Below are positions 4,176 to 38,490 of a DNA stretch of 38,490 bases, piece by piece (position 1 is the first letter of the stretch; each line of letters opens with the position of its first letter). A program made the translations under genes and the position numbers. Under the pieces are notes generated by a model that was given only the letters and a program-made list of their open reading frames with translations, was not told the origin of the DNA and did not search any database. This stretch comes from a virus. The DNA lies in IMG/VR virus record IMGVR_UViG_3300027896_000106, positions 1-38,490 of that record. One strand, written 5' to 3'.

Positions 4176-4181
4176 ATATTA

Positions 4182-4189
4182 TATTTATA
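4182..4189 (-). promoter_or_regulatory. Late promoter TATAAATA for the sheath gene
   Basis: Exact T4 late consensus TATAAATA on the minus strand with a 6-nt spacer to the ATG at 4175. If transcription starts where it does in T4, the mRNA would begin at or within one or two bases of the start codon. Confidence 0.7.
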
Positions 4190-4206: not shown

Positions 4207-4827
4207 TTATAAAAGTTGTGCAAAGAACTGCGAGAATGCAAACTCGAATGTGGTTTCCATCTCGCCTGGCTCCCTGTAGTTATAATTTATACTTCCTAAA
4301 GATACAGGAAAAGCTTTCGTATAAGTAAATTGAATTATATTATTATCATATTCATCTTTACCGAACAAAGTAAAATCGGTTTGATATGATTGGGGCTGTA
4401 AAATTGGATTTAATTTGTTGCCTTGTACAATTGATATATCAGAAATTGGCTGTTTTACGTCGTATGAAGATTCTTGTTGGTCGTTTAAAAGGTTTAGCCA
4501 ATAATAGATAACCCAGTAATTGTTAAATTGGTTGTCAACAGTAAAATTTACCGATATGTTTGGGTAAGGCGGCCTTGTATTTGATGATACCTTATAGCTT
4601 TGGCCACTATAGCCTGCTGTAAATTCTGGTACTGATATTGTTGGCAACACTGAACCATATACGGAAAATTGTAAAGAGTTTTGATTTAATAGGTTATTAC
4701 TTCTAACTGATAAATTGTTGTTGTTTTTGTTTCTAAGTATAGGGGGTAAGTTAAAAACAAGTAGAAACTTATCTAGTCTGCTTTTATTAAGTTGAGATTG
4801 AACTAAATTTGGGTTTGTATCAGGCAT
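4207..4827 (-). CDS. Tail-tube-fold structural protein (third tube paralogue)
   Basis: 206 residues. After a polar N terminus it shows FLLVFNLPPILR, then 'PTISVPEFTAGYSGQSYKV', 'YPNISVNFTVDNQFNNYWVIYYW' and a closing 'METTFEFAFSQFF'. This strand order resembles tube-fold proteins of T4-like phages, including the 'PE...Y.G....' loop, so a minor tube or connector role is likely. The ATG overlaps the terminase stop by one nt (TAATG), so translation is probably coupled to terminase. T4 has no gene here between 17 and 18, so the exact counterpart is unknown. Confidence 0.5.
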   Translation of the reverse strand: MPDTNPNLVQSQLNKSRLDKFLLVFNLPPILRNKNNNNLSVRSNNLLNQNSLQFSVYGSVLPTISVPEFTAGYSGQSYKVSSNTRPPYPNISVNFTVDNQFNNYWVIYYWLNLLNDQQESSYDVKQPISDISIVQGNKLNPILQPQSYQTDFTLFGKDEYDNNIIQFTYTKAFPVSLGSINYNYREPGEMETTFEFAFSQFFAQLL

Positions 4828-6737: not shown

Positions 6738-6740
6738 AAA

Positions 6741-7622
6741 TTATATATTTTTAGGTCTTCCTAAAACCCATCCAATTGGTACGGGTTGGTCTTTTTGAAA
6801 TCTTTTCATTATTAAAGTTACCGGATCATAAGCAAATTTTGAACCTTGATTCATATTTTTGTACCCTGACACATTTTGTCTTTTACCAGCACCTAATAAC
6901 CAACCATACGCAATATTACCATCGTTACCGGTGTACCGTCTAACTTCTCCTGTTATTGGGTTATGTATATACTGGCATCCTTTACCACAACGCTTTAGTT
7001 TAACGTCTTTATCTAATCTCTTAGCTGCTATAGACATATTAATCTTTGCTTGTATAGATCTTTTCATATTACGGTGAGTGTTAGCTGTTTTTTCTATTTT
7101 TTGGGGGTTGGTGTTTATTTTAGTTTGTCGTTCTTTAAGCTTTTCTGGATTATTTTTGACCCATTCTTTTACCTTTACTGATATTTTCTCACGTCGTGAA
7201 AATGATGTTAACACTTGAAGCATTTTTTTTCTGTAACCAACTGACTTCCATCTTTTTTTGGCAGCAGTGGACATTTCTTTTTTGATGTCTTCATTCCAAC
7301 TGCAATTACCGGCCCCACCTTCTTTCAAATTATATGTTACCCCATTATTTATAAAATTTTTATTAACTAACTCCTTTTCTTTTTCAAGAGCCTCTTTATA
7401 CGTGTTATAAAAAAATAAATTTTCTTTTATAAAATTTTCTATTCCATATTTTTTTATTGCTCGTTTTATCAAAGTGCCAGAGCCCATGTAATTGTCGTCC
7501 AAATTATCTGTCCTATGCACACCTATATAAATTTTGTTATTAACTTTGCAAGTTATTTTATACACGTAATTGTAAGTTCTATTAATATTTGGATCGTTTG
7601 GTCCCACATTATTATTTAACAA
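6741..7622 (-). CDS. Free-standing GIY-YIG homing endonuclease inside the split intein
   Basis: Up to 293 residues. The N-terminal GIY-YIG domain has YVY (19-21), YIG (32-34), a following basic HRTDN segment, 'DDNYMGSGTLIKRAIKKYG' and a Glu-rich catalytic helix KEALEKEKELV, then YNLKEGGAG. The middle is lysine-rich. The C terminus carries two imperfect repeats of the form (Y/F)xxxPxTxxxxRxxxxxxxxxGWxxG, like DNA-binding modules in phage endonucleases. The start is uncertain: no ATG is near; TTG (7622) or GTG (7607) fits. It lies between the two parts of terminase, stopping 3 nt before the C part. It presumably spreads the split-intein allele by cutting intein-free terminase genes; the target is inferred. 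Confidence 0.88.
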   Translation of the reverse strand: MLNNNVGPNDPNINRTYNYVYKITCKVNNKIYIGVHRTDNLDDNYMGSGTLIKRAIKKYGIENFIKENLFFYNTYKEALEKEKELVNKNFINNGVTYNLKEGGAGNCSWNEDIKKEMSTAAKKRWKSVGYRKKMLQVLTSFSRREKISVKVKEWVKNNPEKLKERQTKINTNPQKIEKTANTHRNMKRSIQAKINMSIAAKRLDKDVKLKRCGKGCQYIHNPITGEVRRYTGNDGNIAYGWLLGAGKRQNVSGYKNMNQGSKFAYDPVTLIMKRFQKDQPVPIGWVLGRPKNI

Positions 7623-7647
7623 TTAATATATGATAAATACGCATTTA

Positions 7648-9306
7648 TTAAATTAATTTTGTAGGTATTGTATCTTTCATTTTTTCTTTCAACTCCTGCA
7701 TTGTGCAATTTATTAATTTACCGGTGTGCTTATTTCTAAGTGTTATTTTACCATCGCCGTGCACACAATTGATAGATTGACCTCTTGCAGCGGTACCTGT
7801 TGTGGTTGAGATACCAATTCTACACCCATTAGCTAATGACATGGACGTTTTACCATACTCCTTAACACCAGGCTTTAACCAATTTGGTAGTTCTTCATAT
7901 GCTAATCTAATACGTCTAAAAATTTCTATAGCTGTACCTTCTTTATTAGCAACAATTAATATAGATTGATCATTTTGGAAACATGCTATCCATAGAGCAT
8001 ATATTGTCATTAACGTCGTGTTTGAAGTACATATATTTGTTTCACCACAAAGAAAACAACCTTCTTTGCTATCAACAGTTATACATCTTACAGGTACTGA
8101 TTTTACTTTTTCTATATTTTTTATAAAAACGTTTTTTACGTGAATTGACGATGAAATGTGTTGTTTATTCTTTTTTCTCGGTAATTTAAAAACACTATAT
8201 GAAGTTGCAAACGATATTTTATATAATGGTAATCCTGGTTTACCTGTTGGAGATTTATTATGGTCAAATCTACTAACTACAGTTTTAATTCTTAAAGAAT
8301 GTAGTATTGTTTGCATTTGATCTATTAATACTTTATTGGTGTTGTAGAACGTATTCATTTTACCATCAGCACAACCGTCTGAGTCCATTAAACCTCTAAT
8401 AAGTTCAAGACGCTGTTCAACTGATGAGTTTATATAAATTTGAGGAATATGTTTATTTTTATATAGATTTAACTCTCTTAAATGAGTCATAAACTTTTTA
8501 TTGTTATATTTTGCTCTTGAAAAAGATACATTATAATGTCCATAATTAATTTCGGTTATTTTTATTTTTTCTGAATTAATATTAATACAATTAACGGTCT
8601 CATTAATATCCTGCTTACTAACAGCAATTGCCGGCGAATGTCTGCTACCATCGCCTAACCATAAACCTAGATGGTATGGATCTATTGGAAGAATTTGCTG
8701 ACTATATTGTATGGGCCCTGTATGAGGTATTGAATAATTTAATTGTGGGTGTTTTTTATGGACTGTAATTTTTTTTGCTAATTCAGCTGTTGTTCTCTTT
8801 GAAGGTAACCTTTTATGGCACCTGTCATAATGATCTTGCGTGTACCATAAGTGTTCTGCATCAGCTACAATTTCTTGACCATTATCAAAAGTTAATTTAT
8901 AACAATCTCTATTTTCTAAAATATCATGAGCATATACAACATTACAAGGTTTACCATCTATACCATATACTTTATCGCCTTGTTTTATATCTCCCATGGT
9001 AGTCCACCCTGAAGGTGTAGGTATTTTGGTGTCCAATGCCAAAGCTTTTCCTATCTGACGTGAGGCTAACAAAATAACAAACCTATTATCACGCATCTTG
9101 CGTAACACTCTCTTCTGGCATAAAAACAAATCTATCTTTTGTTTACCTTCATCTAATGATACAATAGTGAAGAAGTTTTCAGCAAAGTATAGCAGGTTTT
9201 GACTACATTTTTTGAGGTCGTGTATCTGTTCTGGCGTATATTCAAATTCTGACTCTATAGTTGGTAGGTTAGGGTTATTTAAATAGTTTTGTTTAATTTT
9301 GGGCAC
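7648..9306 (-). CDS. gp17: Terminase large subunit, N-terminal part, carrying a class 3 intein and split intein N-half
   Basis: 552 residues from a GTG start (no ATG available; start 24 nt from the divergent plus-strand ATG). Residues 1-87 are the terminase N terminus ending in Walker A ASRQIGK. Residues 88-429 are an intein. The ATPase continues at Thr430 (TTLMTIYALW...) through ANKEGTAIEIFRRIRLAYE to ARGQSIN at 507-513. Residues 514-552 are the N half of a split intein. In T4 the Walker A is SRQLGKTT, so the first intein splits the P-loop between Lys and Thr. The polypeptide lacks Walker B and the nuclease; both are supplied by 4827-6737 through trans-splicing. Together the four extein pieces (87+84+97+293) give about 561 residues, close to the 610 of T4 gp17. 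Confidence 0.93.
   Translation of the reverse strand: MPKIKQNYLNNPNLPTIESEFEYTPEQIHDLKKCSQNLLYFAENFFTIVSLDEGKQKIDLFLCQKRVLRKMRDNRFVILLASRQIGKALALDTKIPTPSGWTTMGDIKQGDKVYGIDGKPCNVVYAHDILENRDCYKLTFDNGQEIVADAEHLWYTQDHYDRCHKRLPSKRTTAELAKKITVHKKHPQLNYSIPHTGPIQYSQQILPIDPYHLGLWLGDGSRHSPAIAVSKQDINETVNCININSEKIKITEINYGHYNVSFSRAKYNNKKFMTHLRELNLYKNKHIPQIYINSSVEQRLELIRGLMDSDGCADGKMNTFYNTNKVLIDQMQTILHSLRIKTVVSRFDHNKSPTGKPGLPLYKISFATSYSVFKLPRKKNKQHISSSIHVKNVFIKNIEKVKSVPVRCITVDSKEGCFLCGETNICTSNTTLMTIYALWIACFQNDQSILIVANKEGTAIEIFRRIRLAYEELPNWLKPGVKEYGKTSMSLANGCRIGISTTTGTAARGQSINCVHGDGKITLRNKHTGKLINCTMQELKEKMKDTIPTKLI
7651..7767 (-). other. N-terminal half of an atypically split intein (IntN, 39 residues)
   Basis: The last 39 residues of the N-terminal terminase gene, from Cys514 (CVHGDGKITLRNKHTG...) to Ile552. 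It contains only block A, so the split lies between blocks A and B, unlike the usual site at the endonuclease position. The preceding residues ARGQSIN match the T4 gp17 VRGNSFA segment just before Walker B. Confidence 0.87.
8020..9045 (-). other. Class 3 intein with LAGLIDADG endonuclease in the Walker A loop
   Basis: 342 residues (88-429). It starts with Ala (ALALDTKIPTPSGW) instead of Cys/Ser. It carries the class 3 'WCT' triplet: Trp154 in block B (AEHLW), Cys408 in block F (VRCITVD) and Thr427 in block G (CTSN | T). Two LAGLIDADG-type motifs, GLWLGDG near 214-220 and ELIRGLMDSDG near 301-311, mark an intact homing endonuclease. The penultimate residue is Ser428 instead of the usual His. 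Confidence 0.88.
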
Positions 9307-13172: not shown

Positions 13173-13598
13173 ATGAGCAATTACGTCAATAGATTTAAAC
13201 GCGTCCTTGTTGAAGCTGACGATCCAGATGTCTCGGACAAAAAAGCAATGCAAGCAACGTTAGACCAAGGTACGGAAACAACAGATTTTGATGTCAAAGA
13301 CGTCCCCCCTGCAGATGCTCAAGCAGCACCAACAATGAGTGCAATTCAAAAGCAGATGTATGACCAGTTAAAGCAATGGATTGATAAGATTGATGAATTT
13401 AAGAACTACTTAAACGCGCCTGATGCTGAAAGTGTTGTTAGTAAGTTAAATGCTGCAGAAGCAGACACATTATTTGACAAAATTAGCACATCTGAAACAA
13501 AGAAAATTGCTCGTGTTGCAGCTGAATTGGGTTCATTCAGTGAAGACTTGAAGGGTTACTTAGCAACAGCTAATGATCCAAAGTATAGATATGTTTAA
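13173..13598 (+). CDS. Putative capsid-targeted internal protein
   Basis: 141 residues. The N terminus MSNYVNRFKRVLVE followed by AD has the shape of the T4 capsid-targeting sequence (short amphipathic helix ending in a hydrophobic-x-Glu, then a small residue), the site cut by the T4 prohead protease. The rest is acidic, then helical ('SAIQKQMYDQLKQWIDKIDEFKNYL', 'AAEADTLFDKISTSETKKIARVAAELGSF'). A perfect late box precedes it. Its stop shares TTAA with the convergent primase gene. A packaged head protein is the inferred role. Confidence 0.62.
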   Translation: MSNYVNRFKRVLVEADDPDVSDKKAMQATLDQGTETTDFDVKDVPPADAQAAPTMSAIQKQMYDQLKQWIDKIDEFKNYLNAPDAESVVSKLNAAEADTLFDKISTSETKKIARVAAELGSFSEDLKGYLATANDPKYRYV

Positions 13599-20510: not shown

Positions 20511-21182
20511 TTAAACAGTCAACGTCTTATTTAGATATTTGTTGTACTTGGTTAAAAAGTATTTTTGCCCTTGCTTCCATTGTTCAGAAACATTGCTTAG
20601 TCCAGGTGAATTATGAATAATTGGTATATCACCCACACCAACTTTTACTTTAGCCAAATTGCAATCAAGAGAAAACATTAAATCGTAAAAATGAAAATGT
20701 GCTGGGTTACTTTCATCAAATTTTACATTGCATGGCATATTTACAGCCATAAACACACCATCAATCATTAATACTCTACTTGGTACTGGACCAAAAGAGG
20801 TGTACATATAATTGTTTTCATCCATGCCATGTGCTACACAACCACGTAAATTTTGTCTTTCAGTCATTAAATGCCACAATACAGGCTCTTTGACTGTAAT
20901 TTGTGTGTTACCAGCTAGTCCAAACACATCATACATATCAGAGTAATATCGTATTCTTTTTTCAAAATCACCGCAATTAATGTAAACGTCGTCGTGTGTA
21001 AAGATTACAAGCTTTGTCTTGCATATATCTAACGCTTCATTGTAAATTACAGGTAATGGTTGTTTGTTGTTACCGAAAAACAAAACGTTATTTGGATTAA
21101 TACCATGTGTAACTAACGATTTATACAGGAAAGTATCTTCAAGTTTATCTTTTTGAGATGCTACTACTAGTTTGTATGTCAT
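20511..21182 (-). CDS. Glycosyltransferase, GT-A/GT2-like
   Basis: 223 residues. 'VVASQKDKLEDTFLYKSL' opens a nucleotide-sugar-binding fold; 'PLPVIYNEALDICKTKLVIFTHDDVYI' contains the acidic HDD triplet (63-65) that takes the place of the DxD metal site; 'SRVLMIDGVFMAVNMPCNVKFDE' and 'AHFHFYDLMFSLDC' are the acceptor-side motifs typical of this family. It should transfer a sugar to an unknown acceptor (DNA, virion or host surface). Last gene of a three-gene set coupled by ATGA overlaps with an acetyltransferase and an amidotransferase. Confidence 0.75.
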   Translation of the reverse strand: MTYKLVVASQKDKLEDTFLYKSLVTHGINPNNVLFFGNNKQPLPVIYNEALDICKTKLVIFTHDDVYINCGDFEKRIRYYSDMYDVFGLAGNTQITVKEPVLWHLMTERQNLRGCVAHGMDENNYMYTSFGPVPSRVLMIDGVFMAVNMPCNVKFDESNPAHFHFYDLMFSLDCNLAKVKVGVGDIPIIHNSPGLSNVSEQWKQGQKYFLTKYNKYLNKTLTV

Positions 21183-21640
21183 TTTAAAATATCAGCTATT
21201 GGAGCTTCGTAATAATAATCGAGAGTACCAAATTCATTCTTATGTGTTGTGTACTTGTTATAAAAAAGCTTATTATAAAATTTTACCCCATCACTATTTT
21301 CTTCTGAATTAACAAAATAATTTGAAGCAAAAGTTTTATTATCTTGTAAAGATTGTACTGTTAGTTTTTTTGCAATACCTTTTCCTCTTAATGCCTTATC
21401 AACAACAATATAATACGTTTTAATCGTGTCAGGTTTTCTTGTATTAATAGAAAATGCATGTAAGCCTAAAATATTATTGTCTTTATCTGTATAAATCATG
21501 ATTGGTTGTTTATCCCACCAGTGTCTAGACTCCCAAACGAAGCCAAATGTATTTAAAATAAATGAATCGGTGTTTTTAAACACAAACTCCATTAATTTGA
21601 ATTTATCATCTACAGAAATTGGTTGTACATATTTTATCAT
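21179..21640 (-). CDS. GNAT-family N-acetyltransferase
   Basis: 153 residues. Motif A, the acetyl-CoA pyrophosphate loop, is clear: 'YYIVVDKALRGKGIAKKLTVQSL' with RGKGIA at 85-90. The flanking strands 'LGLHAFSIN' and the late 'NSEENSDGVKFYNKLFY' fit the GNAT fold. The acceptor is unknown; coupling by ATGA to the genes on both sides suggests a small molecule, possibly an amino sugar, handled by the same cassette. Confidence 0.75.
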   Translation of the reverse strand: MIKYVQPISVDDKFKLMEFVFKNTDSFILNTFGFVWESRHWWDKQPIMIYTDKDNNILGLHAFSINTRKPDTIKTYYIVVDKALRGKGIAKKLTVQSLQDNKTFASNYFVNSEENSDGVKFYNKLFYNKYTTHKNEFGTLDYYYEAPIADILK

Positions 21641-22299
21641 AGCTCTAAAAATGGTGATTTTGCTTTAAATTCACCAGCTGGTTTAATGCCTCTTTTTGTA
21701 AACTTATATAAAACTCCTTCTTTTATTTCTTTAAAGTCTTCGCCCTTTGCAGATGAAAAGCTATTCTTATCGTAGAATAAAGTACTTCCTTGTCTTGCAA
21801 GATAAACATTGAAGGTATTTGTATTAACTATCCAAAGACCAAATGTACCTTGCAATAATTCAAGCACGTAACTGATTAACTGAACCTCTTTTTCAATTGT
21901 ACTAGCTTTATCGAAGGTTTTCTCAAAATGGGCTAACAATGCTGGTATGATACTTGAATCAACAATATTTTCGTGGTTTGGTATAAAATTAACCTTTAGT
22001 TTATCGAAGTTAGTTAACACTCCATTGTGTGCAACTACCCAATTTTCTGTAATGAATGGGTGGCAATTATGTTCTCTCCAAACTCTTTCAGTCGATGTTG
22101 GTGCTTGGTTGTGACCAAGATATGTTAAGCCATTTGGTAAATCTATCTCGTCCCAGTCAAATGAGCCTTCAGTCTTTTGTATATCAAACATTTTGTTGTC
22201 AAAATATAGAATACCTGATGCAAAGTTACCTCTGACCCTATTTACTCGATCAAGCACTTCAAATTTACTTGCATCTATAGATCCAAAAATTCCGCACAT
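21637..22299 (-). CDS. Class II glutamine amidotransferase domain protein
   Basis: 220 residues. Cys2 of MCGIFG is the N-terminal nucleophile exposed after Met removal. 'GHNQAPTS' and 'HNCHPF', then 'WVVAHNGVLTNFDKL' are the family's glutamine-site and nearby motifs; the C-terminal 'GTFGLWIVNTNTFNVYLARQGSTLFY' completes the Ntn fold. It frees ammonia from glutamine. No synthetase or isomerase domain is attached, so it must partner with another protein. Candidates are a sugar-modifying enzyme in the same cassette, or QueC 1.1 kb away, since fused Gat-QueC proteins exist in some phages. Confidence 0.85.
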   Translation of the reverse strand: MCGIFGSIDASKFEVLDRVNRVRGNFASGILYFDNKMFDIQKTEGSFDWDEIDLPNGLTYLGHNQAPTSTERVWREHNCHPFITENWVVAHNGVLTNFDKLKVNFIPNHENIVDSSIIPALLAHFEKTFDKASTIEKEVQLISYVLELLQGTFGLWIVNTNTFNVYLARQGSTLFYDKNSFSSAKGEDFKEIKEGVLYKFTKRGIKPAGEFKAKSPFLEL

Positions 22300-22332
22300 A
22301 TGTTATATTATACATTAATAATATAGAGGTTC

Positions 22333-22340
22333 CATAAATA
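22333..22340 (+). promoter_or_regulatory. Late promoter-like box CATAAATA
   Basis: CATAAATA, 6-nt spacer ATATAT, ATG at 22347; in the divergent gap after the amidotransferase gene. Confidence 0.6.
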
Positions 22341-22346
22341 ATATAT

Positions 22347-23390
22347 ATGAATAGCCTTTTTACAAGTAGTTGGGCAAAGAATGTTGCTCCAAATCCAGAA
22401 GCTTTGTGGAATCATGAGTTTAAAGAAGTGATAGTTGAAAAAAGAGGTCGTGCGGCACACCCTGCATACGCAAAGTTAATGGGTATGGAAAGTGTCAAAA
22501 AATTAAAAGGTACAATGACACCTAGATACTTCGTAACAAAGGTTTTAAAACAGATTCAAACAGAGCATCCAAATAAAAAAATTGAAGATGTAATTAAAAA
22601 CATTACGGATGAAGATATTGAAAAGATGATGAACTTAACTGCAAATCTTTCAAGAAAGCTTCAAATGAAGCCTGACATTAGATTTAGTGCTGCTCAAGCT
22701 GTTGAGGCTCCTGCAGTTCAAAAATTCAAAGAAGGTGAGAACGCTACAGACACATTAGCAAAAAACTTAGACGCAACAACAAAATTTGAATATGAAAAAG
22801 ATGTGGGTGATAATTCTGTTTACAACGCTACTCACAACGGTATTAAATACAGAGTAACGGTGAGAGGTGGTGAGGGTAAGACATTAATGCTATCTGATGT
22901 TTTGGGATCAGGTGTAATTTCATTGCAAGTTATTGATCCATCAGGTACAACATCTGTTGAAAGTCCTCAAACGGGTGGCAAATCATTTGGTGATATGAAG
23001 AGACCGGGTAAGTTATTAGCTGATTTCCCATATGAAGGTGGTAGGGGTGAAGATTGGAGTGGTGAAGATCCGGAAGAAACGGGTGGTCATAATGTTAGAG
23101 GTGAAGATGAGGAAGAAGATGGTAACGAATTTTCCGGTGCTTTAGCTGCTGCAAAAGCTTCTGGTAAAGATACTTTCAATGTTGGTGGTAAAGAGTTTCA
23201 TGTAAACGGTGAAGAAGATTGTGAGTATTCTGAAGAAGATGAAAACGAAGAAGATTGTGAAGGTATGCCAAAGATTGTGGTAATTAAAATGTCGCCACAA
23301 GCCAAAAACAAGGCAATGTTAGATTCATTACGCGCAAAAAGACGTCATATGTTTGGCACAGAAATGCGCCACGGTAACGGTCCAATCTAA
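22347..23390 (+). CDS. Acidic structural-type protein, probable late virion component
   Basis: 347 residues. The N terminus MNSLFTSSWAKNVAPNPEAL leads to a hydrophobic 'FKEVIVEKRG' that could be a protease-type site. Residues 45-110 are basic and helical; 110-200 mixed; about 230-305 is very acidic with GEDEEEDGNEFSG and 'CEYSEEDENEEDCEG'. The C terminus is basic (RAKRRHMFGTEMRHGNG). Late box, acidity and an isolated plus-strand site match the other putative head-associated genes at 9331 and 13173. I do not recognise a family. It ends in a CTAA overlap with queC. Confidence 0.6.
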   Translation: MNSLFTSSWAKNVAPNPEALWNHEFKEVIVEKRGRAAHPAYAKLMGMESVKKLKGTMTPRYFVTKVLKQIQTEHPNKKIEDVIKNITDEDIEKMMNLTANLSRKLQMKPDIRFSAAQAVEAPAVQKFKEGENATDTLAKNLDATTKFEYEKDVGDNSVYNATHNGIKYRVTVRGGEGKTLMLSDVLGSGVISLQVIDPSGTTSVESPQTGGKSFGDMKRPGKLLADFPYEGGRGEDWSGEDPEETGGHNVRGEDEEEDGNEFSGALAAAKASGKDTFNVGGKEFHVNGEEDCEYSEEDENEEDCEGMPKIVVIKMSPQAKNKAMLDSLRAKRRHMFGTEMRHGNGPI

Positions 23391-24139
23391 CGTATAAAAA
23401 CGCAACCTTTACTCTCGTAAAGCTTTTCTAACTTTTCTTGCTGAACGTATTGGATTGGGTCTTTATACCCAGCTTCTAAGAAACCACGTAGTCTTAAACT
23501 ACTAGAAGGCGTTTCAGCATCTGCTAAACCATCTTCACGGTTTGAATAGCATGTCCAAGTATTGGAAAAATTAACATTCAATCTAACGCCTTCCAAAATA
23601 ATTTCCTTTTTAGACATTACTAGTAATGGTGCTTCAATCTTAATTTTACTCTTTCTATTAAGCATAATAAGATTGTTTACATAACTCAAAAACTCTTCAC
23701 TACCATCCCAATAACCAGCTAATGAATCTGCTTGAGCTGCACCGTACCAAACTGTACTGCATTCTAGCGTTTCAGCATATGCTGCTGCAATCGATAAAAA
23801 CATCATATTACGGAACGGTACATAAGATACAGGTTGAGCATCGCCTGCCATTTCCTTAATATTTGGATTTGCTATATTAAAGTTGGTTAATGATGATTTG
23901 TTTGCAATATCTTTAATATAGCTTACATCTAATACTTTATGGGTAACATTTAAGTTACCAATAGCATTACGTTTCAAATCAGATATTTGCAAGCTTACAC
24001 AATTGAGTTCGCGCTTATGTCTTTGGCCGTAATCAAATGAGAGAGTATGTATCTCATCATACCCTCTATCCCAAGCCATGTGTAGTAAAACAGATGAATC
24101 CATTCCACCGCTAAGTGATAAAACTAATTTATTGCTCAT
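23387..24139 (-). CDS. queC: QueC-like 7-cyano-7-deazaguanine synthase, zinc ligands mostly lost
   Basis: 250 residues. The adenylation loop LSGGMDSS (residues 9-16), FDYGQRH (35-41) and 'SYVPFRNMMFLSIAAAYAE' are QueC hallmarks; 'WYGAAQADSLAGYWDGSEEF' also fits. QueC makes preQ0 from carboxy-deazaguanine using ATP and ammonia, a precursor of 7-deazaguanine DNA bases in some phages. The usual C-terminal zinc set has four cysteines (C ... CGxCxxC); here only Cys197 (TWTC) remains and the others align with Asp207, Thr210 and Ser213 (ADAETPSSSLRLRGF). A fragment of queD lies immediately upstream. Active or not cannot be told from sequence. Confidence 0.88.
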   Translation of the reverse strand: MSNKLVLSLSGGMDSSVLLHMAWDRGYDEIHTLSFDYGQRHKRELNCVSLQISDLKRNAIGNLNVTHKVLDVSYIKDIANKSSLTNFNIANPNIKEMAGDAQPVSYVPFRNMMFLSIAAAYAETLECSTVWYGAAQADSLAGYWDGSEEFLSYVNNLIMLNRKSKIKIEAPLLVMSKKEIILEGVRLNVNFSNTWTCYSNREDGLADAETPSSSLRLRGFLEAGYKDPIQYVQQEKLEKLYESKGCVFIR

Positions 24140-30060: not shown

Positions 30061-31863
30061 TTATTCAACAAAGTTGACCCTCTTTGTTATGCCGTTATGC
30101 TTCTCTAAGAAAACAATTTCCCCAGTTGCAGCCTTAATACTCTCTTTTCTATGGCTAATAATAAAAATGCATTCGTTATGCTTTTCGCAGCGTTCTTTAA
30201 GCATTTCAAGTACGATATCTACACCCTTTTCGTCTAAACTACTATCTAATAGTTCGTCGTAAATGCTAATATTGTAGTGTACGTTACCTTGTGACTTGCG
30301 CATATCCATAAAGGAAAACAAACATGCTAAATCAATAGCTTTACGTTCTGCACCAGAAAAATTATTGTAATCACACATCTTACCCTTCTCGTTTAATATC
30401 TCTTCAACGAAATATTCATTAAACACGCAAATACTATTACTATCTAAGCGTTTAAGGTAATAAGCAAGCTTACTATTAAAGTTTTGAAGTATCTTTTTAA
30501 CAATATAACTTTTTACACCTTCTTCACTTACTACAAACTTAACAACGTCAAGTAGGTTAATAATTTTTTTTATGTTTTCAATTTCAACACGCACAGACTC
30601 AAGACGTTCTTTAGTTTGATTAATAACGTCATTAAAAGACTCTCCATGTTCGTTTAAGTGTTGAATATTTTCGAGTAATTGTGTGTTGAGGTCTGTTAAA
30701 TCTTGAATACGTTTACTGATAACCTTTCTATTCTCTAATTTAACTTTCAATACATTTAAATCGTCGTTTATTTTATTAATATGGTTTCTTATCTTTTTAT
30801 TTTTATCTTTAAACGATTCAACTTGAGCACTTAAAGTTTCACACTTTAACGAATGATCTTTAATATCAGTACCAAGCTTGTCCTTCTCCGCTCTAATGTG
30901 ATCTCTATGCGTACTGTCAATAGGTCTTAAACAGGTTGGGCAAATATCAGCTGAAGTACCAATATTGCTAAGCTGTGCCTGCTTCTGTTTAACTGTTGCA
31001 TTACATTCGGCTACTTGCGATATAATACCCTTTATCTTTTCATCTACCGTATCATAAGCTTTAGTAAGTGTCTGTAATTCGGTCTGTTTAATATTAAGAT
31101 CTATATTTTCTGACTTACTAAGTTCGTCTTGAAGCTTGTAAATTTCATCAGTGTTAGATTTAATCTTGTTATTAATATTAGATATCTTTTCTTCTCTTTC
31201 TTTTACTCTTAACTGCTTTTGTTCAAGATATGTTTGTATAGACTTCTCTATTTCACTGTGCTTAGTTGTTTCAATATCGAATGTTTTGTTTATTTGGTTT
31301 ATATCATCACGTAACATGCTAAGCATCTCTGAAAAAACTTGCAAGTTAAATATTTGTTCAATAAACTTACGCTTTTCTACTTTACTCTTAGCCATGAACG
31401 GTAACGTATTATTAACAGTCATAATAACACAATTATGAAATACTTCTTGTGAAGAAGATAGTACAGCTCCTATGTATTCAGTTGTGTTTGCAATACTATC
31501 CCTTGTTTTATCCATACCATCTTTATAAATGTGCAGTCTGGAAGGGTTAAGAGTACGTACAACTACAAACTCATTATTACCTTTTGGTGAGTTAACATTA
31601 AATGATACCTCTACTCTGCATTCACCACTTGTTAAATTGTTTGGTATGAACTCTTTTTTAATATCTCTAATAGTAGAGCCAAATATAGCAAAATAAAGTG
31701 CATCAGCAATAGTAGACTTACCGACACCATTGCGACGGTCCTCTTTATCTCTATTAATACCTGTAATAATGTGTAGTCCTTTCTTAAAATCGACTACGAC
31801 TTCATCTTCACCTACCGATAGAAAATTTTTAATCTTCAGTCGGTGAAAAGTAACATACTTCAT
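30061..31863 (-). CDS. gp46: Recombination nuclease ATPase subunit, gp46/Rad50-like
   Basis: 600 residues (T4 gp46 is 560). Walker A lies in RRNGVGKSTIADALYFAIFG (GVGKS 46-50). Two long coiled coils flank a zinc hook CPTC (308-311). The C-terminal lobe carries the signature 'NNFSGAERKAIDLACLF' and Walker B 'ISIYDELLDSSLDEKG'. It pairs with gp47 to resect DNA ends and host DNA. Stop/start overlap with gp47 (ATGA), as in T4. Confidence 0.96.
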   Translation of the reverse strand: MKYVTFHRLKIKNFLSVGEDEVVVDFKKGLHIITGINRDKEDRRNGVGKSTIADALYFAIFGSTIRDIKKEFIPNNLTSGECRVEVSFNVNSPKGNNEFVVVRTLNPSRLHIYKDGMDKTRDSIANTTEYIGAVLSSSQEVFHNCVIMTVNNTLPFMAKSKVEKRKFIEQIFNLQVFSEMLSMLRDDINQINKTFDIETTKHSEIEKSIQTYLEQKQLRVKEREEKISNINNKIKSNTDEIYKLQDELSKSENIDLNIKQTELQTLTKAYDTVDEKIKGIISQVAECNATVKQKQAQLSNIGTSADICPTCLRPIDSTHRDHIRAEKDKLGTDIKDHSLKCETLSAQVESFKDKNKKIRNHINKINDDLNVLKVKLENRKVISKRIQDLTDLNTQLLENIQHLNEHGESFNDVINQTKERLESVRVEIENIKKIINLLDVVKFVVSEEGVKSYIVKKILQNFNSKLAYYLKRLDSNSICVFNEYFVEEILNEKGKMCDYNNFSGAERKAIDLACLFSFMDMRKSQGNVHYNISIYDELLDSSLDEKGVDIVLEMLKERCEKHNECIFIISHRKESIKAATGEIVFLEKHNGITKRVNFVE

Positions 31864-32897
31864 AATTTAGATCTATTATATAAACTAATTGTATAGTCTA
31901 CAACTTCTTTTTTATTGTTGATGTCTAAGATAGCAACAAAGTCTTCAATTGCTTTAACTATATCAACACCCGACAAATCTATACTAGCCTCATCACCAAC
32001 CTTTATCTTGTTGTAATTAACATCATAATCAACGTGTAAGTCGTTAGGTTTGTATTGGTTCATCTTAGCAATCAATACATCCAAATGATTGGAACTAATA
32101 TTCTTATCAATTACTAATTTAATAATATTATTGGGTATAAAGCTATTGAAATCCTTGTCGATATCTTTTAAGGTGATTAGTTTTGAAAGGTATACCTTTA
32201 TATGTTGCGGGGTGTTTGGGTTTTCAACAAACTCGTAAGAAAGATTATCTGTATCAAGTATGTAATAACCTTTATGCTGGTAAGCATCTCCAAAATCCAT
32301 CTGAAAAGGATTACCAACATAAACAATGGTGCTGTTAGTAAACTTTTTTTCATCCCGTAAATGAAAATGCCCGGAAAAAATTAAAGGTGCTTTTGATGTT
32401 AGTAATTCAGCACTATCACCTGAATCACATACTTTAAATGCATTCATCTTAAAGTTACGTAATTCGAAATGGCCAAATATAACGTCACTGTTTGGTATGT
32501 CTTGTAACTTTGTACCCCAAGGGCAAAAAGTAAATCTTCTATCCTGTACATCTATAGTAGTACACGTATCAAATACGTGTATATTCTTTCTACCTTTAAG
32601 AACAGCTAAGCTATTAATTTCAGATGTGTCTTTATAATAGCAGTCGTGGTTACCAGTGATAGCGTAAACGTTAAAGTTTTCTAAATTGCTAAAAAACTTA
32701 TTAGATACAGCTAATGTATGTAAATTAATCTCATCCCTGTAATGGTGAACATCGCCGCAAAAGATTACATCTTTAATTCCTCTTTCTGTGATGTTGTTTT
32801 TAAACCAATCACACCATTCCAGAGATATATTGTGCCAAAACACTGAATTTTGGTGTACTCCTAAATGTAAATCAGAAAATATTGCTATCTTGGACAT
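31860..32897 (-). CDS. gp47: Recombination nuclease, gp47/Mre11-like
   Basis: 345 residues (T4 gp47 is 339). Phosphoesterase motifs in order: FSDLHLGVH, GDVHHY, ITGNHDC, 'FGHFEL', 'FSGHFHL'. Together they bind two metal ions at the nuclease centre. The C-terminal 100 residues are the partner-binding region. The ATG overlaps the gp55 stop in TAATG, so gp55, gp47 and gp46 are translationally coupled. Confidence 0.96.
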   Translation of the reverse strand: MSKIAIFSDLHLGVHQNSVFWHNISLEWCDWFKNNITERGIKDVIFCGDVHHYRDEINLHTLAVSNKFFSNLENFNVYAITGNHDCYYKDTSEINSLAVLKGRKNIHVFDTCTTIDVQDRRFTFCPWGTKLQDIPNSDVIFGHFELRNFKMNAFKVCDSGDSAELLTSKAPLIFSGHFHLRDEKKFTNSTIVYVGNPFQMDFGDAYQHKGYYILDTDNLSYEFVENPNTPQHIKVYLSKLITLKDIDKDFNSFIPNNIIKLVIDKNISSNHLDVLIAKMNQYKPNDLHVDYDVNYNKIKVGDEASIDLSGVDIVKAIEDFVAILDINNKKEVVDYTISLYNRSKL

Positions 32898-33352
32898 TAT
32901 TCAAAAATAAAACTACCATCTTCATCGTTGGTACTATCTGGCTTGATGTAAATGTTAGCATCTGAGCTATTAGCCATCTCTTCTTCGTAAAATCTACTCC
33001 TATATTCGTTTAAAGCTTCTGTATGCTTCTTCTCTTTTTTGATTCTGTTAATAAAGGCATGGAAAGCAATTGTAGTGAAGTATGAAAACGGGTTGTGTTC
33101 TGAGTTAACATCAAACTTTTTATTCTTAACTGCGGTGTACATCTTAACAATAGCGTCTCCAATCATTTCATCCTTGTAAGTATAGTTAATAAAGTTTGAT
33201 GAATAGCTCAGTCCAACAGCAATCTTGTTAATTGACTCAGCAATTACGCGTTCGTTTGAACTATCTTTGTAATATTCAACTAATTGTTGTTTAAATACAG
33301 CTGGGTCAATATAGTATTCAGTCTTTTTTGGTTTAGGACCTCTTTTAGCCAT
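32897..33352 (-). CDS. gp55: Late transcription sigma factor, gp55-like
   Basis: 151 residues (T4 gp55 is 185). 'YKDEMIGDAIVKMYTAVKNKKFDVNSEHNPFSYFTTIAFHAFINRIKKEKKH' is the sigma region 2 equivalent of T4-family gp55, containing the core-binding and promoter-melting helices. The acidic end GSFIFE may be the clamp-binding tail. It should direct host RNA polymerase to the TAAATA boxes found ahead of many late genes in this window. It stands in the T4-like order with gp47 and gp46. Confidence 0.93.
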   Translation of the reverse strand: MAKRGPKPKKTEYYIDPAVFKQQLVEYYKDSSNERVIAESINKIAVGLSYSSNFINYTYKDEMIGDAIVKMYTAVKNKKFDVNSEHNPFSYFTTIAFHAFINRIKKEKKHTEALNEYRSRFYEEEMANSSDANIYIKPDSTNDEDGSFIFE

Positions 33353-33372
33353 GGGTATATAATATATTACTA

Positions 33373-34806
33373 TTAAAGCTTTTCAACTATCTCACCAATT
33401 TTGTATTGGATCTTCTCTTCCGTGTATATTTCTTGTCGTCTCTGGCTGTGAAGTGAGCTATATTTGAGGTCATCTGCAAGATCTATAATAGTTAACTTGT
33501 CTTTATTAGGATTTAAACGTAATCCTCTACCAATTGATTGAATAGTTCGTACAAAACTTTTACCTCCTGATGCAAAAATGATCATATGCAGGTTTTTTAT
33601 GTTAACACCAGTAGAAAATATTGCGCTAATTGCTATGCATACAACGTTATCATTATCTTCCATCTCTTTTACAACGCGAGCACGTTCACCCACTTCAACT
33701 TCACCGCGAATAAAATAAACTTTGCGGTCTGGTAAGTTGGATTTGAGATAATCTAGTAAGATATCGCCATGAACTATATGGTTTACAAGTATCAAAATGT
33801 TATTTTTACATTTATCGCTAATAATTTTGATAACTTCGTTCCTGTACCTGTTACTGTAAATGAAGTCAAGTTCCGTTCTGAACTTGTTTGCTCCAACGAT
33901 ATTTGGAACTTTATTTTGGTACTTTATTTTTACTATCTTTATTTCCGCATTAGTTAGGTACGATTCTGTACGTAGTTCATAGGAACTCTTTTCGTAAAAC
34001 ACATTTCCCAATTTACCCACAATGTTCCATTCGTCGATTTTGTTGTCAGGAAGTGATCCCGTCAAGCCAAATTTATGGAAAGTCTTTATGGAACTGATAA
34101 TTTTACATATTTTGTTACCTTTCTTTAGTTTATGGCACTCGTCCACAACTAAAATATCTACATCTTTTAACCAATCTTCTTCTTCAAATCTACTTTGTAA
34201 TACACCCATGTTGGCTATAATTACATTAGCGGTAAAATCTGGTTCAACAGAGCCTGTCCATTTTGTTGTTTTAAAAGGAACTCCATAATCAATAAAATCT
34301 TTGTGTGTTTGTGATACGAGTGTTAAATCCGGCACCACTAATAAACATTTCATTTTTTTGTTTTTACTTTCAAAAAAAGAGGAAAGTAATGAAGCTATAG
34401 TAAGGGTTTTACCACCGCCGGTACCTAGCTTTATAATTCCACGACCAAATAAAAATGATTGGTTAATTATATCCTGTTGGTAATCTCTTAATTCTAAATT
34501 TAGCCTGGTATATAACGAAGCACCTTTCATTCCAGGTTTTACAACATCCTGTATCTTATCATCTGTTTTTATTTCTTCGTTTGGGTAAACATTTTTGATG
34601 TACCTTAAAATATCATAAAATAATCCTGGTTCGAAAAGACCTGTTGGAGTTATACAGTAAATTCTTGATGGTACAAAACCACGGCCCATCCTTCTCATGA
34701 AAAATGCATTTTCATTTTTTACACTATAACACTCTCTTATTTCATCGAATTTATCTCCGAAAATTCTGCATAATTTTCTATTTGGAAAATATTCGAATGA
34801 TATCAT
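33373..34806 (-). CDS. uvsW: Superfamily 2 helicase UvsW
   Basis: 477 residues (T4 UvsW about 500). 'ELRDYQQDIINQSFLFGRGIIKLGTGGGKTLTIASL' gives the Q-like motif and Walker A (GTGGGKT 128-134). DECH at 222-225, 'FGLTGS' motif III, 'GEVEVGERARVVKEME' and 'QSIGRGLRLNPNKDKLTIIDLADD' motifs V-VI complete the helicase. It unwinds R-loops and branched DNA to move replication to recombination mode. Start codon overlaps the uvsY stop. Confidence 0.95.
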   Translation of the reverse strand: MISFEYFPNRKLCRIFGDKFDEIRECYSVKNENAFFMRRMGRGFVPSRIYCITPTGLFEPGLFYDILRYIKNVYPNEEIKTDDKIQDVVKPGMKGASLYTRLNLELRDYQQDIINQSFLFGRGIIKLGTGGGKTLTIASLLSSFFESKNKKMKCLLVVPDLTLVSQTHKDFIDYGVPFKTTKWTGSVEPDFTANVIIANMGVLQSRFEEEDWLKDVDILVVDECHKLKKGNKICKIISSIKTFHKFGLTGSLPDNKIDEWNIVGKLGNVFYEKSSYELRTESYLTNAEIKIVKIKYQNKVPNIVGANKFRTELDFIYSNRYRNEVIKIISDKCKNNILILVNHIVHGDILLDYLKSNLPDRKVYFIRGEVEVGERARVVKEMEDNDNVVCIAISAIFSTGVNIKNLHMIIFASGGKSFVRTIQSIGRGLRLNPNKDKLTIIDLADDLKYSSLHSQRRQEIYTEEKIQYKIGEIVEKL

Positions 34807-35201
34807 TACATTTGTTCGAGCTTTATTATATCAATGATATTCTTAATATCGTAGGTAAGTGATGAAAATGATTTTTCTGTTTTTTCTAAAAACTCTATAA
34901 TAAGTTTTTCTTCTTTAATTTGTAATTTTAAATTCTTTATAAGATCATTGTTTTGAGCTGCGGTAATTACTGAATCTTTGGATAACTTTATTACAGCTTG
35001 AGATTGTACTTCATTTACTAGAGTTCCAAGTGTTTCTTCTAGTTGTGCCTCGAGTTTATAGAGATTGCGCTTGTGGTTGATTAATCTGCTAACCCAGAAG
35101 TGTTTACGACCAGGAGATTTGAGAGATGCATCTTTTATAGTAAATTCATCTAATTTCAGATCTTCTGTGATCTCCTGAATATATCTTTCTAATATTTCCA
35201 C
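34806..35201 (-). CDS. uvsY: Recombination mediator UvsY
   Basis: 131 residues (T4 UvsY is 137); GTG start. A helical protein whose 'SLKSPGRKHFWVSRLINHKRNLYKLEAQLEETLG' resembles the UvsY segment for DNA and subunit contacts, and whose C-terminal helices fit its length. UvsY loads UvsX on gp32-coated DNA. The TAATG overlap with uvsW and the T4-like neighbourhood support the call. Confidence 0.78.
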   Translation of the reverse strand: MEILERYIQEITEDLKLDEFTIKDASLKSPGRKHFWVSRLINHKRNLYKLEAQLEETLGTLVNEVQSQAVIKLSKDSVITAAQNNDLIKNLKLQIKEEKLIIEFLEKTEKSFSSLTYDIKNIIDIIKLEQM

Positions 35202-35224: not shown

Positions 35225-35497
35225 TTGAAAATCAACCCAGTATACAAAAAATTTTTTATTAAAGCTCTTAAGGAAAGTGGCCCTAATTACGTAGCCACAA
35301 TTCCTAACACAGCAGGTAGAGGTGGTGCAGTTGGTAACTCACCTAACATGTATACCACTGGTAGCGCTACTGGCACAACAGGTACAGATGCGTACGCTCC
35401 TGGAGACATGAGAGTACCATCGTCATTATACGGTGGTAAAATGGCTAGACGCAATACTGTTAATCGGTTCCCAAAAAGAACACGTAGAAAGAAGTAA
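35225..35497 (+). CDS. Small Gly/Thr-rich protein with basic tail, putative internal head protein
   Basis: 90 residues from TTG. 'MKINPVYKKFFIKALKE' followed by SG has the capsid-targeting shape (amphipathic helix, L-x-E, small residue). A low-complexity Gly/Ala/Thr middle (TGSATGTTGTDAYAPGDM) precedes a strongly basic C terminus NRFPKRTRRKK, consistent with DNA contact. The stop overlaps the next ATG (TAATG). Packaged, DNA-bound head protein is the inferred role. Confidence 0.55.
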   Translation: MKINPVYKKFFIKALKESGPNYVATIPNTAGRGGAVGNSPNMYTTGSATGTTGTDAYAPGDMRVPSSLYGGKMARRNTVNRFPKRTRRKK

Positions 35498-36481: not shown

Positions 36482-36847
36482 ATGGATATGTTTACGGAAA
36501 AAGCTAATAAAATAATGCAGAAAGAAGTAATGTCTGGTATTCGTAAAAAAATGCCGCCTCCAGAAAAAGCTTTTAAAGATAAAAGCAAGTACAACCGTAA
36601 ACACAAGCACAAGCAAGATTATGATGAAGATGCAGAGGATAGTTCTGTAGCTCAGCAAACAGATCCAACAGGTATTACACCCGGGCAGGAAAAAGCTATT
36701 AACTTAGCTAGTCGATTAGCAACAAAACCTGGTAAATTTAATTTACCTTTCATTGGTGCTCAAGCAAAAATGAATTCTGCATACGGGGATTTAATGAAAG
36801 CATTAGCTACTAAAATTGCAACAATAGCAAAAACAATTAATACATGA
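36482..36847 (+). CDS. Unknown small protein of the plus-strand operon
   Basis: 121 residues: helical N terminus (MDMFTEKANKIMQKEVMSG), a basic/acidic middle (KYNRKHKHKQDYDEDAEDSS) and a helical C terminus with 'NLASRLATKPGKFNLPFIGAQAKMNSAYGDLMKALATKI'. Ends in ATGA overlap with the next gene. Possibly a virion protein by context. Confidence 0.6.
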   Translation: MDMFTEKANKIMQKEVMSGIRKKMPPPEKAFKDKSKYNRKHKHKQDYDEDAEDSSVAQQTDPTGITPGQEKAINLASRLATKPGKFNLPFIGAQAKMNSAYGDLMKALATKIATIAKTINT

Positions 36848-37212
36848 AAAAGTTTTTACATATTATCGAACAGTATAATGCTAAGCTTGTCAACGAACAA
36901 GATGCACCACCTCCTATGCCTGCACCACCCCCAGAAGGCTTTTCATCACCCCCAGCTCCAGCTCCTCAAGTACCTACCGGTGCACCAGAAGCTCCAGTAG
37001 AAGATCAACCTGAACAACCAGACGTTCCTGCTGGTATTGCAACAATGGGTAACATGCTTAAGAAAGCTTTAACGATGAAGTTAAGCGATGAAGATCGCTT
37101 TAAAGTTTCACAATTACCAGAAATAAACGAAAATAACGCAAACGAAATTATTAACACTTTAATCAGCATTATGAAGAGCTATTCAGCCGATCTTGATGTT
37201 GGAACTGAATAA
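36844..37212 (+). CDS. Putative capsid-targeted protein, Pro-rich
   Basis: 122 residues. The N terminus MKKFLHIIEQYNAKLVNE-Q has the capsid-targeting shape. A Pro/Ala-rich linker runs from about residue 24 to 66, followed by helices 'AGIATMGNMLKKALTMKLSDEDRFKVSQLPEI'. The start and stop are both shared with neighbours (ATGA, TAATG). A packaged internal protein is inferred. Confidence 0.55.
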   Translation: MKKFLHIIEQYNAKLVNEQDAPPPMPAPPPEGFSSPPAPAPQVPTGAPEAPVEDQPEQPDVPAGIATMGNMLKKALTMKLSDEDRFKVSQLPEINENNANEIINTLISIMKSYSADLDVGTE

Positions 37213-38225
37213 TGTATAAATCGTTAGACAAAGTATATTTGGAGAATGTAGCTACTATTCTCAAAAATGTCTTGACTGAACAGGATGCTAATATACCTGG
37301 ACCAGAACAATCTGCTTTACCACCACCTAAACCAAAAAAAACTCCAGTAATAGATGCTTCATACGATGAAATTATCTATAATAGATACCCTGGCGACAAA
37401 AGCGATTTAGAAAAAATTACAGGTATTCAATTGCCAAGTAACAGTACAAAACTGCATATTGTTGGTGATTTGAATAAAAAAGTTTGGTCAAGTTTATTTG
37501 AAATTGCTCCACCTAAAAAGGGTAAAGCGGAAGGGCAAACCAAAGGTTCTGGTAATGGTGAGTTAGCAATGTATTGGTTTCTTAAAAAATCAAATCCAGG
37601 TGTAAGAGATACAAGATATGAAGCAGCTGGCAAAGCTGATATTGCAGTTGGAGATGTTGGTGTTGAAGTAAAAGCATATCCAATGAACGATCTTTATATA
37701 AAGATAGGTAAATTTAGAACAGCTGGTGAAAGTGCAGGTAAACAAAATAATATTGCTATAAATACAGTGCTTGGAATGGGAACATTAATGGGAAAGATTG
37801 CTATGCCAGAAGGTAAAAGTAAAGGTAAAATAGCTGATCCTGGGAACTTTAATTTTGAAGATTTAAATAAATCATTTGAAAAGCTAAACAAACTATACAA
37901 GGCTGTTGACGACCCGTATTTGTTATCTAATTTTGATATTTTTAAACAGATACATGAAAACATTGATTTAGTTTATGGTTACCTTGGTAAGAAAGAATCT
38001 AGTGAAGAGTTAGCTAAAAATTTACTCTGGAAAACATTAATTATCAAAATATTAAACAAACCAGGTCCAGGTGGTTTCATAATAAATTGCAATGTGGCAG
38101 GTAATATGGAATGGTTTAAAATACCAACCGGTCTAGACCCAGAAAATATGCCAAGCGCATTTAAAGGTGATGATGTAAAAGCAGGTAGCGGTGAATTATT
38201 CGTAACAAAGAGGTTATTTAGATGA
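37212..38225 (+). CDS. Putative packaged PD-(D/E)XK nuclease
   Basis: 337 residues. The N terminus MYKSLDKVYLENVATILKNV, then LTE and Gln, fits the capsid-targeting shape, followed by a Pro-rich linker (30-45). The catalytic-type pattern is GNGE117LAMYWFL, then AGKAD143IAVGDVGVE152VK154AY, i.e. a Glu helix, an Asp at the end of a strand, and E-x-K, the classic PD-(D/E)XK arrangement. C-terminal residues about 270-337 end 'GELFVTKRLFR'. It would cut DNA; with the N-terminal tag it could be delivered into the host cell. It couples with both neighbours by start/stop overlap. Confidence 0.65.
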   Translation: MYKSLDKVYLENVATILKNVLTEQDANIPGPEQSALPPPKPKKTPVIDASYDEIIYNRYPGDKSDLEKITGIQLPSNSTKLHIVGDLNKKVWSSLFEIAPPKKGKAEGQTKGSGNGELAMYWFLKKSNPGVRDTRYEAAGKADIAVGDVGVEVKAYPMNDLYIKIGKFRTAGESAGKQNNIAINTVLGMGTLMGKIAMPEGKSKGKIADPGNFNFEDLNKSFEKLNKLYKAVDDPYLLSNFDIFKQIHENIDLVYGYLGKKESSEELAKNLLWKTLIIKILNKPGPGGFIINCNVAGNMEWFKIPTGLDPENMPSAFKGDDVKAGSGELFVTKRLFR

Positions 38226-38490
38226 ACAATTTTAAATCATATTTTTTAACCGAAGGGGGTGCAGCTGGTCACATGGCACATCCATTTGATGTACTTACTG
38301 TTAAAACCGGTAAAGATTTAATTTCGTTTTTTAATAAAGCGTATAATAGTTTAAGAAGACACAGTGCATCTTTAAAGATTGATGGTGTTAATGTGAGTAT
38401 TAAACTCGTAAATACTGGTTCAGAAGAAACACCGATCTGGCAATTTGCATTGGACAGAGGCTCAATGAAGCCACTCGATGTAAAAGGTAT
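38222..38490 (+). CDS. KxDG nucleotidyltransferase (ligase-like), N-terminal part
   Basis: 89 complete codons to the window edge, ATG overlapping the previous stop (ATGA). MNNFKSYFLTE followed by GG is the best capsid-targeting match here, including the L-T-E/G cut pattern. Then 'GHMAHPFDVLTVKTG' and the active-site-like 'SLKIDGVNVSIKL', where Lys of KxDG would take the AMP/GMP. The KxDGxN spacing resembles RNA ligase/DNA ligase superfamily motif I. The downstream motifs lie outside the window. Confidence 0.65.
   Translation, partial: MNNFKSYFLTEGGAAGHMAHPFDVLTVKTGKDLISFFNKAYNSLRRHSASLKIDGVNVSIKLVNTGSEETPIWQFALDRGSMKPLDVKG

Follow-up and report, generated by a model that had tools for sequence, protein, structure and literature searches.

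A candidate head-targeted PD-(D/E)XK-like nuclease family of T4-like aquatic phages

The gene at positions 37212–38225 of a 38,490-base viral fragment (the window, i.e. the whole stretch of DNA analysed here) raises the question of why a T4-like phage would carry a predicted restriction-like nuclease headed by what resembles a head-targeting tag. A sequence-only reading had noted the string GNGE...AD...VEVK in the product, had placed the gene in an operon of tagged proteins and had proposed a packaged nuclease; if such a putative enzyme is injected, it may act early in infection against host DNA, against plasmids or against defence loci.

The phage and the locus

The window encodes a set of T4-like proteins, namely tail tube and sheath, terminase parts, primase, single-stranded DNA-binding protein, DnaB-like helicase, UvsX-like recombinase, DNA polymerase and UvsW-like helicase. 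Four further reading frames (30061–31863, 31860–32897, 32897–33352 and 34806–35201) we take, from sequence and position, to be gp46, gp47, a small late sigma-like protein and UvsY. The UvsW-like protein shares about 30–32% identity with those of cultured phages and a blastn search with 30061–34806 found nothing, and we therefore place this phage far from any cultured one. On the minus strand (4827–9306), the large terminase looks split into an ATPase-like ORF (7648–9306), a GIY-YIG homing endonuclease (6741–7622) and a second terminase-matching ORF (4827–6737), an arrangement that may reflect an intron, an intein or a split gene.

The nuclease ORF overlaps both of its neighbours: at its start, the stop of a preceding 122-amino-acid gene (36844–37212), and at its stop, the start of the following gene (38222). 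Its parts are as follows.

37212–38225, plus strand: candidate head-targeted PD-(D/E)XK-like nuclease gene; ATG start, 337 amino acids, conserved family; model pLDDT 87, pTM 0.80
37212–37280, plus strand: N-terminal tag, residues 1–23 (MYKSLDKVYLENVATILKNVLTE); predicted helix ending in L-T-E, prohead-protease-like, with a predicted cut after E23
37281–37358, plus strand: Pro/Lys-rich linker, residues 24–49; low model confidence (pLDDT 48–67 across residues 21–50)
37359–38222, plus strand: predicted nuclease domain, residues 50–337; pLDDT mostly >90; aligned with HinP1I by VIA-align over residues 79–337
37551–37562, plus strand: GNGE, residues 114–117; E117 opens the core helix; G114, G116 and E117 invariant in 39/39
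37638–37640, plus strand: Asp143, which would be the D of PD and a metal ligand; invariant in 39/39; directly precedes strand 144–146
37665–37673, plus strand: E152-V153-K154, predicted (D/E)xK; E152 and K154 invariant in 39/39; within strand 149–154
37854–38057, plus strand: helical insertion, residues 215–282, from the secondary structure of the model
38058–38066, plus strand: K283-P284-G285, a triplet invariant in alignment A3, ahead of the closing strands

A conserved family nearly confined to uncultured phages

Relatives were collected in three IMG/VR scans, the largest of which comprised 71 loci. Removal of near-duplicates left 39 non-redundant sequences, gp078 of Flavobacterium phage immuto among them, and alignment A3 holds 38 sequences, without immuto. 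These 38 diverge down to about 17–30% identity, yet G114, G116, E117, D143, E152 and K154 are invariant in all 39 homologues; in A3, Y156, G166, K283, P284, G285 and I290 are the only further invariant positions. As the members are related to each other, conservation and motif counts are not independent. Judged from its relatives, ORF 37212–38225 is a real, conserved gene, and it belongs to a previously undescribed family of predicted nucleases of T4-like aquatic phages. The motif pattern first noted in the translation (GNGE at residues 114–117, AD at 142–143, VEVK at 151–154) is confirmed far beyond chance, and the earlier numbering of Glu152 and Lys154 agrees with the 337-residue translation.

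Scans of the protein and its 38 relatives against Pfam, PHROGs, NCBIfam and PADLOC gave no usable match, only scattered weak hits; the HinP1I and MspI families did not appear in the Pfam scan of the 38 members up to an E of 0.1, and a PDB sequence search with the family profile returned no real match. A tblastn search with four different members against 50,697 phage records found nothing except the immuto N-terminus. Across the records searched, the family is thus nearly absent from cultured phages, immuto being the only case and first found via its N-terminus. In hhalign, immuto gp078 aligns with the family at 98.5% probability (E 2.3e-15), the alignment covering mainly the N-terminus. It shares with the branch linked to the large terminase (TerL) an N-terminus of EWAWR type and a position upstream of TerL, and carries GKGE...GDV...EIK; it differs in lacking Y156, in its longer middle part and in being annotated only as hypothetical. 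Among GTDB prokaryote genomes there was one match, in a Flavobacteriales MAG, on a contig of 3.9 kb. This contig also holds genes that, named by eye, presumably encode counterparts of the T4 gp25 and gp6 baseplate proteins; it is therefore probably a phage contig, and the GTDB search accordingly found no bacterial restriction system.

Predicted fold and active site

An AlphaFold2 model built on the 38-row alignment (pLDDT 87.4, pTM 0.80) places residues 1–23 in a helix, while residues 24–50 are unreliable. The domain comprises helix 117–127, with E117 at its start, followed by strands 131–133, 144–146 (D143 just before it), 149–154 (containing E152 and K154) and 162–167; next come helix 174–197, the helical insertion 215–282 and strands 289–293 and 298–303. 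The predicted elements stand in the order expected of a PD-(D/E)XK core, and the model does not show what the sequence-only reading had named as counting against a nuclease, a fold without the alpha-beta-beta-beta-alpha-beta core. When residues 76–202 were predicted alone, this isolated core folded poorly (pLDDT 62).

In a structural comparison with VIA-align, the top row was HinP1I (PDB 1ynm), aligned over 167 residues (model residues 79–337) with a Z of 4.2 that lies within the chance range; the second row had a Z of 2.9, and a Foldseek search with the model gave nothing significant. As the only whole-domain match, HinP1I agrees weakly with the motif, and a Z of 4.2 alone proves nothing. HinP1I is a Type II restriction endonuclease of the PD-(D/E)XK superfamily and similar in size to the window nuclease; its active site, of D...(E/Q)xK type, resembles the one predicted here. 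It acts as a monomer with one catalytic site (PMC4081073). Identity with HinP1I is 10%, without a match at the sequence level; the window nuclease moreover differs in being phage-encoded, in its putative head tag and its helical insertion, and in the lack of a partner methyltransferase beside the gene. The PD-(D/E)XK signature, D...(D/E)xK with an upstream acidic residue, is present as E117, D143, E152 and K154 in 39/39 sequences. Together, the invariant catalytic residues, the order of the predicted elements and the weak whole-domain match to HinP1I support the predicted assignment to this class, and we regard the protein as very probably a nuclease.

A putative prohead-protease site ahead of the domain

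The T4 prohead protease gp21 cleaves after the Glu of L/I-X-E and so strips mature-head proteins of N-terminal propeptides of 7–65 residues; in the T4 internal proteins, this propeptide serves to direct the protein to the head (PMC9026906). In the window protein, LTE/Q (the slash marks the predicted cut) occupies residues 21–23, and its counterpart in the related locus L002 reads INE/K. Among the 35 members with full N-termini, 28 have an (L/I)xE motif in the 12 residues that precede the domain, whereas control windows taken from the same proteins gave 3.3 on average and 8 at most; the window protein lies outside the 28, its motif preceding a long Pro-rich linker. The first 75 residues of the members contain 87 (L/I)xE motifs, compared with 36.7 ± 5.1 in shuffles.

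The tag sequence itself is wholly different between branches. The window type is MYKSLDKVYLE...VLTE/Q; the TerL-linked branch has about 38 conserved residues with DKLYTEWAWR, followed by LINE/A, LVEE/S and similar; L072 has MDNFKGYILNE/A and L057 has MINSFSGYILNE/A, the last being almost the T4 pattern. The MxxFxxYILNE/A-like tags of L057, L072 and L079 are close to the T4 capsid targeting sequence, and L082 and L101 have no clear tag. We had considered the EWAWR N-terminus as a general tag common to other proteins, and rejected this since it was found on the nuclease family only; owing to this restriction, the segment is perhaps better seen as a possible domain than as a tag of general use.

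Two genes upstream of the nuclease also carry candidate tags.

36844–37212, plus strand: upstream overlapping 122-amino-acid Pro-rich tagged protein (MKKFLHIIE/Q), kept just upstream in the related loci L001–L004
35225–35497, plus strand: 90-amino-acid basic-ended protein with a tag-like N-terminus (ALKE/S; VLNE/D in L002)

The 122-residue product gave no informative family match; it is probably a core or cargo protein. The operon of tagged proteins that had been described earlier holds in part: genes starting at 35225 (ALKE/S), 36844 (IIE/Q), 37212 (VLTE/Q) and 38222 (FLTE/G), all on the plus strand, have (L/I)xE near the N-terminus, and their L002 counterparts keep the position with different letters (VLNE/D, IIE/K, FINE/K and FLIE/G), whereas the genes at 35497 (a SegE-type GIY-YIG protein) and 35925 are untagged and the one at 36482 is doubtful. 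An (L/I)xE within the first 25 residues also occurs in 9 of about 37 other window ORFs, which makes the window by itself weak evidence. Elsewhere in the window, a 141-amino-acid ORF (13173–13598, plus strand) beginning MSNYVNRFKRVLVE/ADD is another candidate tagged protein.

The likeness to the T4 internal proteins IPI, IPII, IPIII and Alt lies in a short segment at the N-terminus that closes with (L/I)xE, frequently followed by A and in some members nearly of T4 pattern (MxxFxxYILNE/A), together with a prohead protease in relatives; the difference is the cargo, here a predicted restriction-like nuclease. The known natural cargo of the T4 head consists of the IPs and Alt. Nucleases are known in T4 heads through engineering only, EcoRI and staphylococcal nuclease having been packaged as CTS fusions (PMC9026906).

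Head genes around the nuclease

About 35 loci share one arrangement, in which a core-like protein gene precedes the nuclease, TerL and portal come directly after it, and two small genes complete the row; in immuto the same region continues with a protease, a gene in scaffold position and the major capsid protein. The prohead protease family PF03420 was found in 14 of 24 records of relatives, immuto has a prohead protease in gp070, and no prohead protease was seen in the window-lineage fragments G020–G023. Core-like proteins are encoded as separate tagged genes in some phages (MKRADLKKLILEAYEEVL...) and are fused in immuto gp079 (L018:5476–8001), an 841-amino-acid protein with the same segment inside (SELKEIMLEAYIEVL); L010:865–4854 is grouped with it among the core-like protein loci. 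The fused protein is possibly a polyprotein that is processed at its (L/I)xE motifs.

This arrangement bears on an alternative that we consider rather unlikely, in which the enzyme serves morphogenesis or packaging, joining the prohead core or the terminase-portal complex and trimming or clearing DNA during packaging, and is not ejected against host DNA. Such a protein would likewise carry a core tag, and the position between an acidic core-like protein and TerL-portal, with frames that overlap or abut, is what it would predict. However, the window nuclease gene is not adjacent to TerL: in the window lineage and in that of L057 and L073 it lies away from TerL, beside replication genes, and instead precedes a KxDG nucleotidyltransferase-like gene. 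Moreover, a TerL of T4 type already supplies a nuclease domain of its own.

The downstream gene and co-packaged enzymes

38222–38490, plus strand: gene downstream of the nuclease and overlapping it, incomplete at the end of the window; begins with the tag MNNFKSYFLTE/G, then a KIDG (ligase-like) motif

The full-length counterpart in L006, a near relative of the window, combines KIDG and cytidylyltransferase (NMNAT-like) parts in one protein of 652 amino acids, with a C-terminal PF01467 match at residues 461–554 (E 0.0011, just under the curated cut-off). Cytidylyltransferase counterparts have been detected in purified virions of the cyanophages S-SM1 (T4-GC190; PMC3037559) and S-CREM2 (PMC10665884), the authors of the latter study cautioning that highly expressed proteins can contaminate preparations. 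In L088 and L093, genes for a Zeta-toxin-like kinase, the nuclease and a KWDG protein are consecutive and all tagged, and in L092 a tagged NMNAT-like gene comes next after these three.

These rows could be read as a co-packaged nucleic-acid and NAD enzyme set (nuclease, KxDG nucleotidyltransferase, NMNAT-like cytidylyltransferase and Zeta-toxin-like P-loop kinase) devoted to counter-defence or to the repair of injected DNA or cleaved RNA rather than to host DNA destruction. The tagged rows, the succession of nuclease and KIDG-NMNAT gene in the window lineage and the presence of cytidylyltransferases in virions all suit this idea, which we nevertheless think quite unlikely: in the TerL-linked branch these enzyme genes do not directly flank the nuclease, and BLASTP detected no homology between the KIDG and the DUF6267 (KWDG) proteins. 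Membership of the KIDG gene in DUF6267 had been considered and was dropped after it gave no BLASTP match with one member.

Equally improbable is an ordinary intracellular nuclease made after infection for recombination or host DNA breakdown, its (L/I)xE being incidental, since the two untagged members (L082 and L101) and the chance occurrence of (L/I)xE in about a quarter of window ORFs, which would favour it, stand against the synteny with head genes and against motifs placed at the same junction in 28/35 members (3.3 expected) despite completely different tags. The packaging proposed by the sequence-only reading is supported indirectly by the conserved (L/I)xE sites, by the head-gene synteny and prohead protease of relatives and by the cyanophage virion proteomics of the neighbour's counterparts, and on these grounds the nuclease is likely to be packaged in the head.

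Just before their KWDG (DUF6267) gene, the cultured phages Melnitz, C48C1, DLP_6 and Syn1 (L096–L099) have unrelated-looking proteins with D...(E/S)xK strings, and this position is possibly a slot for exchangeable nucleases. As candidate homologues, the proteins of Melnitz, DLP_6 and Syn1 were compared with the family and showed no detectable homology, so that they are retained as a lead only. In immuto, gp088 (L085:7132–9855), a 907-amino-acid protein annotated NadR, appears by eye to be a fusion of three parts: a nucleotidyltransferase of polymerase-beta type, a cytidylyltransferase and a metalloprotease with HExxH.

Proposed role of the nuclease

We propose, as the best reading and with about even confidence, that a restriction-like nuclease is packaged in the head, leaves it on ejection and is directed against DNA without the modification. 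The product would be a DNA nuclease of PD-(D/E)XK type, probably Mg-dependent, loaded into the phage head: the N-terminal tag of about 23 residues would bring it into the prohead core, a gp21-type prohead protease would cut after LTE, and the freed enzyme would remain in the head with the genome and be ejected together with it. In the cell, it would cut DNA that lacks the phage modification (host chromosome, plasmids, competing phages), and the phage's own DNA would be spared through 7-deazaguanine bases. Nuclease activity, packaging, cleavage, ejection, target and protection are all inferred; that the enzyme is ejected and acts on non-phage DNA has, in our estimate, an evenly balanced chance of being correct.

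An enzyme that cuts only DNA without the modification carried by the phage genome would recall T4 EndoII and EndoIV, which degrade host DNA while the phage DNA contains hydroxymethylcytosine. Those enzymes are made after infection and have other folds, and the protective base of T4 differs from 7-deazaguanine. Nuclease packaging, which has been engineered in T4 heads, seems to occur naturally in many T4-like phages of aquatic origin. If the proposed role is right, it would account for one class of unknown virion cargo and provide a set of tags for protein delivery by phages, and the cultured pair formed by immuto and its host makes it directly testable.

Possible self-protection and 7-deazaguanine genes

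Staphylococcal nuclease packed in T4 heads digests the packaged phage DNA once Ca is added (PMC9026906), and a natural cargo nuclease would therefore need a protected genome. 7-Deazaguanines shield phage DNA from restriction enzymes (PMC6884629), and two window genes are relevant here.

23387–24139, minus strand: QueC (preQ0 synthase), PF06508 E 4.7e-52; part of a possible 7-deazaguanine self-protection
21637–22299, minus strand: class-II glutamine amidotransferase-like gene, PF13522 E 5e-5 (below the curated cut-off), with PHROG matches; a possible partner of QueC (compare phage Gat-QueC)

The contig of the nearest lineage (L089) has FolE and QueD, recognised through blast and Pfam, as well as a radical-SAM gene of QueE type, and the complete immuto genome is annotated with FolE, QueD, QueE, QueC, QueF and DpdA. 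Matches to DpdA were found in the L027, L061 and L073 contigs and to FolE in those of L061, L073 and L019; DpdA of the L073 type matches 9 of the 50,697 phage records in a search that sees close relatives only. QueC, FolE and DpdA had no match in the large contigs G001 (103 kb) and G003 (62 kb), and DpdA was not seen in the window's own lineage; such absences weigh little because most records are fragments. The base-modification shield suggested earlier gains support from genes for 7-deazaguanine synthesis and insertion in several branches, but not in every one, G001 and G003 being without them.

We regard self-protection by 7-deazaguanine as a tentative explanation. If it holds, 7-deazaguanine DNA gains a reason beyond the evasion of host restriction, namely protection from the phage's own cargo. 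Packaged nuclease and modified DNA would then form an offensive, virion-borne counterpart of restriction-modification, with uncuttable DNA in the same capsid and unmodified DNA destroyed on ejection, an extension that we find somewhat more doubtful.

In the records searched, no N6/N4 or D12 methylase appeared and a single C5 methylase was found, at 3194–4183 of the G017 contig (L074), which speaks against a universal link to 7-deazaguanine. The nuclease of this contig shares 87% identity with the one on contigs that carry FolE and DpdA; the modification gene may have been swapped between close relatives. In the window, overlapping glycosyltransferase-like, GNAT and glutamine amidotransferase genes lie beside QueC (20511–24139), and this gene group may make an elaborated 7-deazaguanine base.
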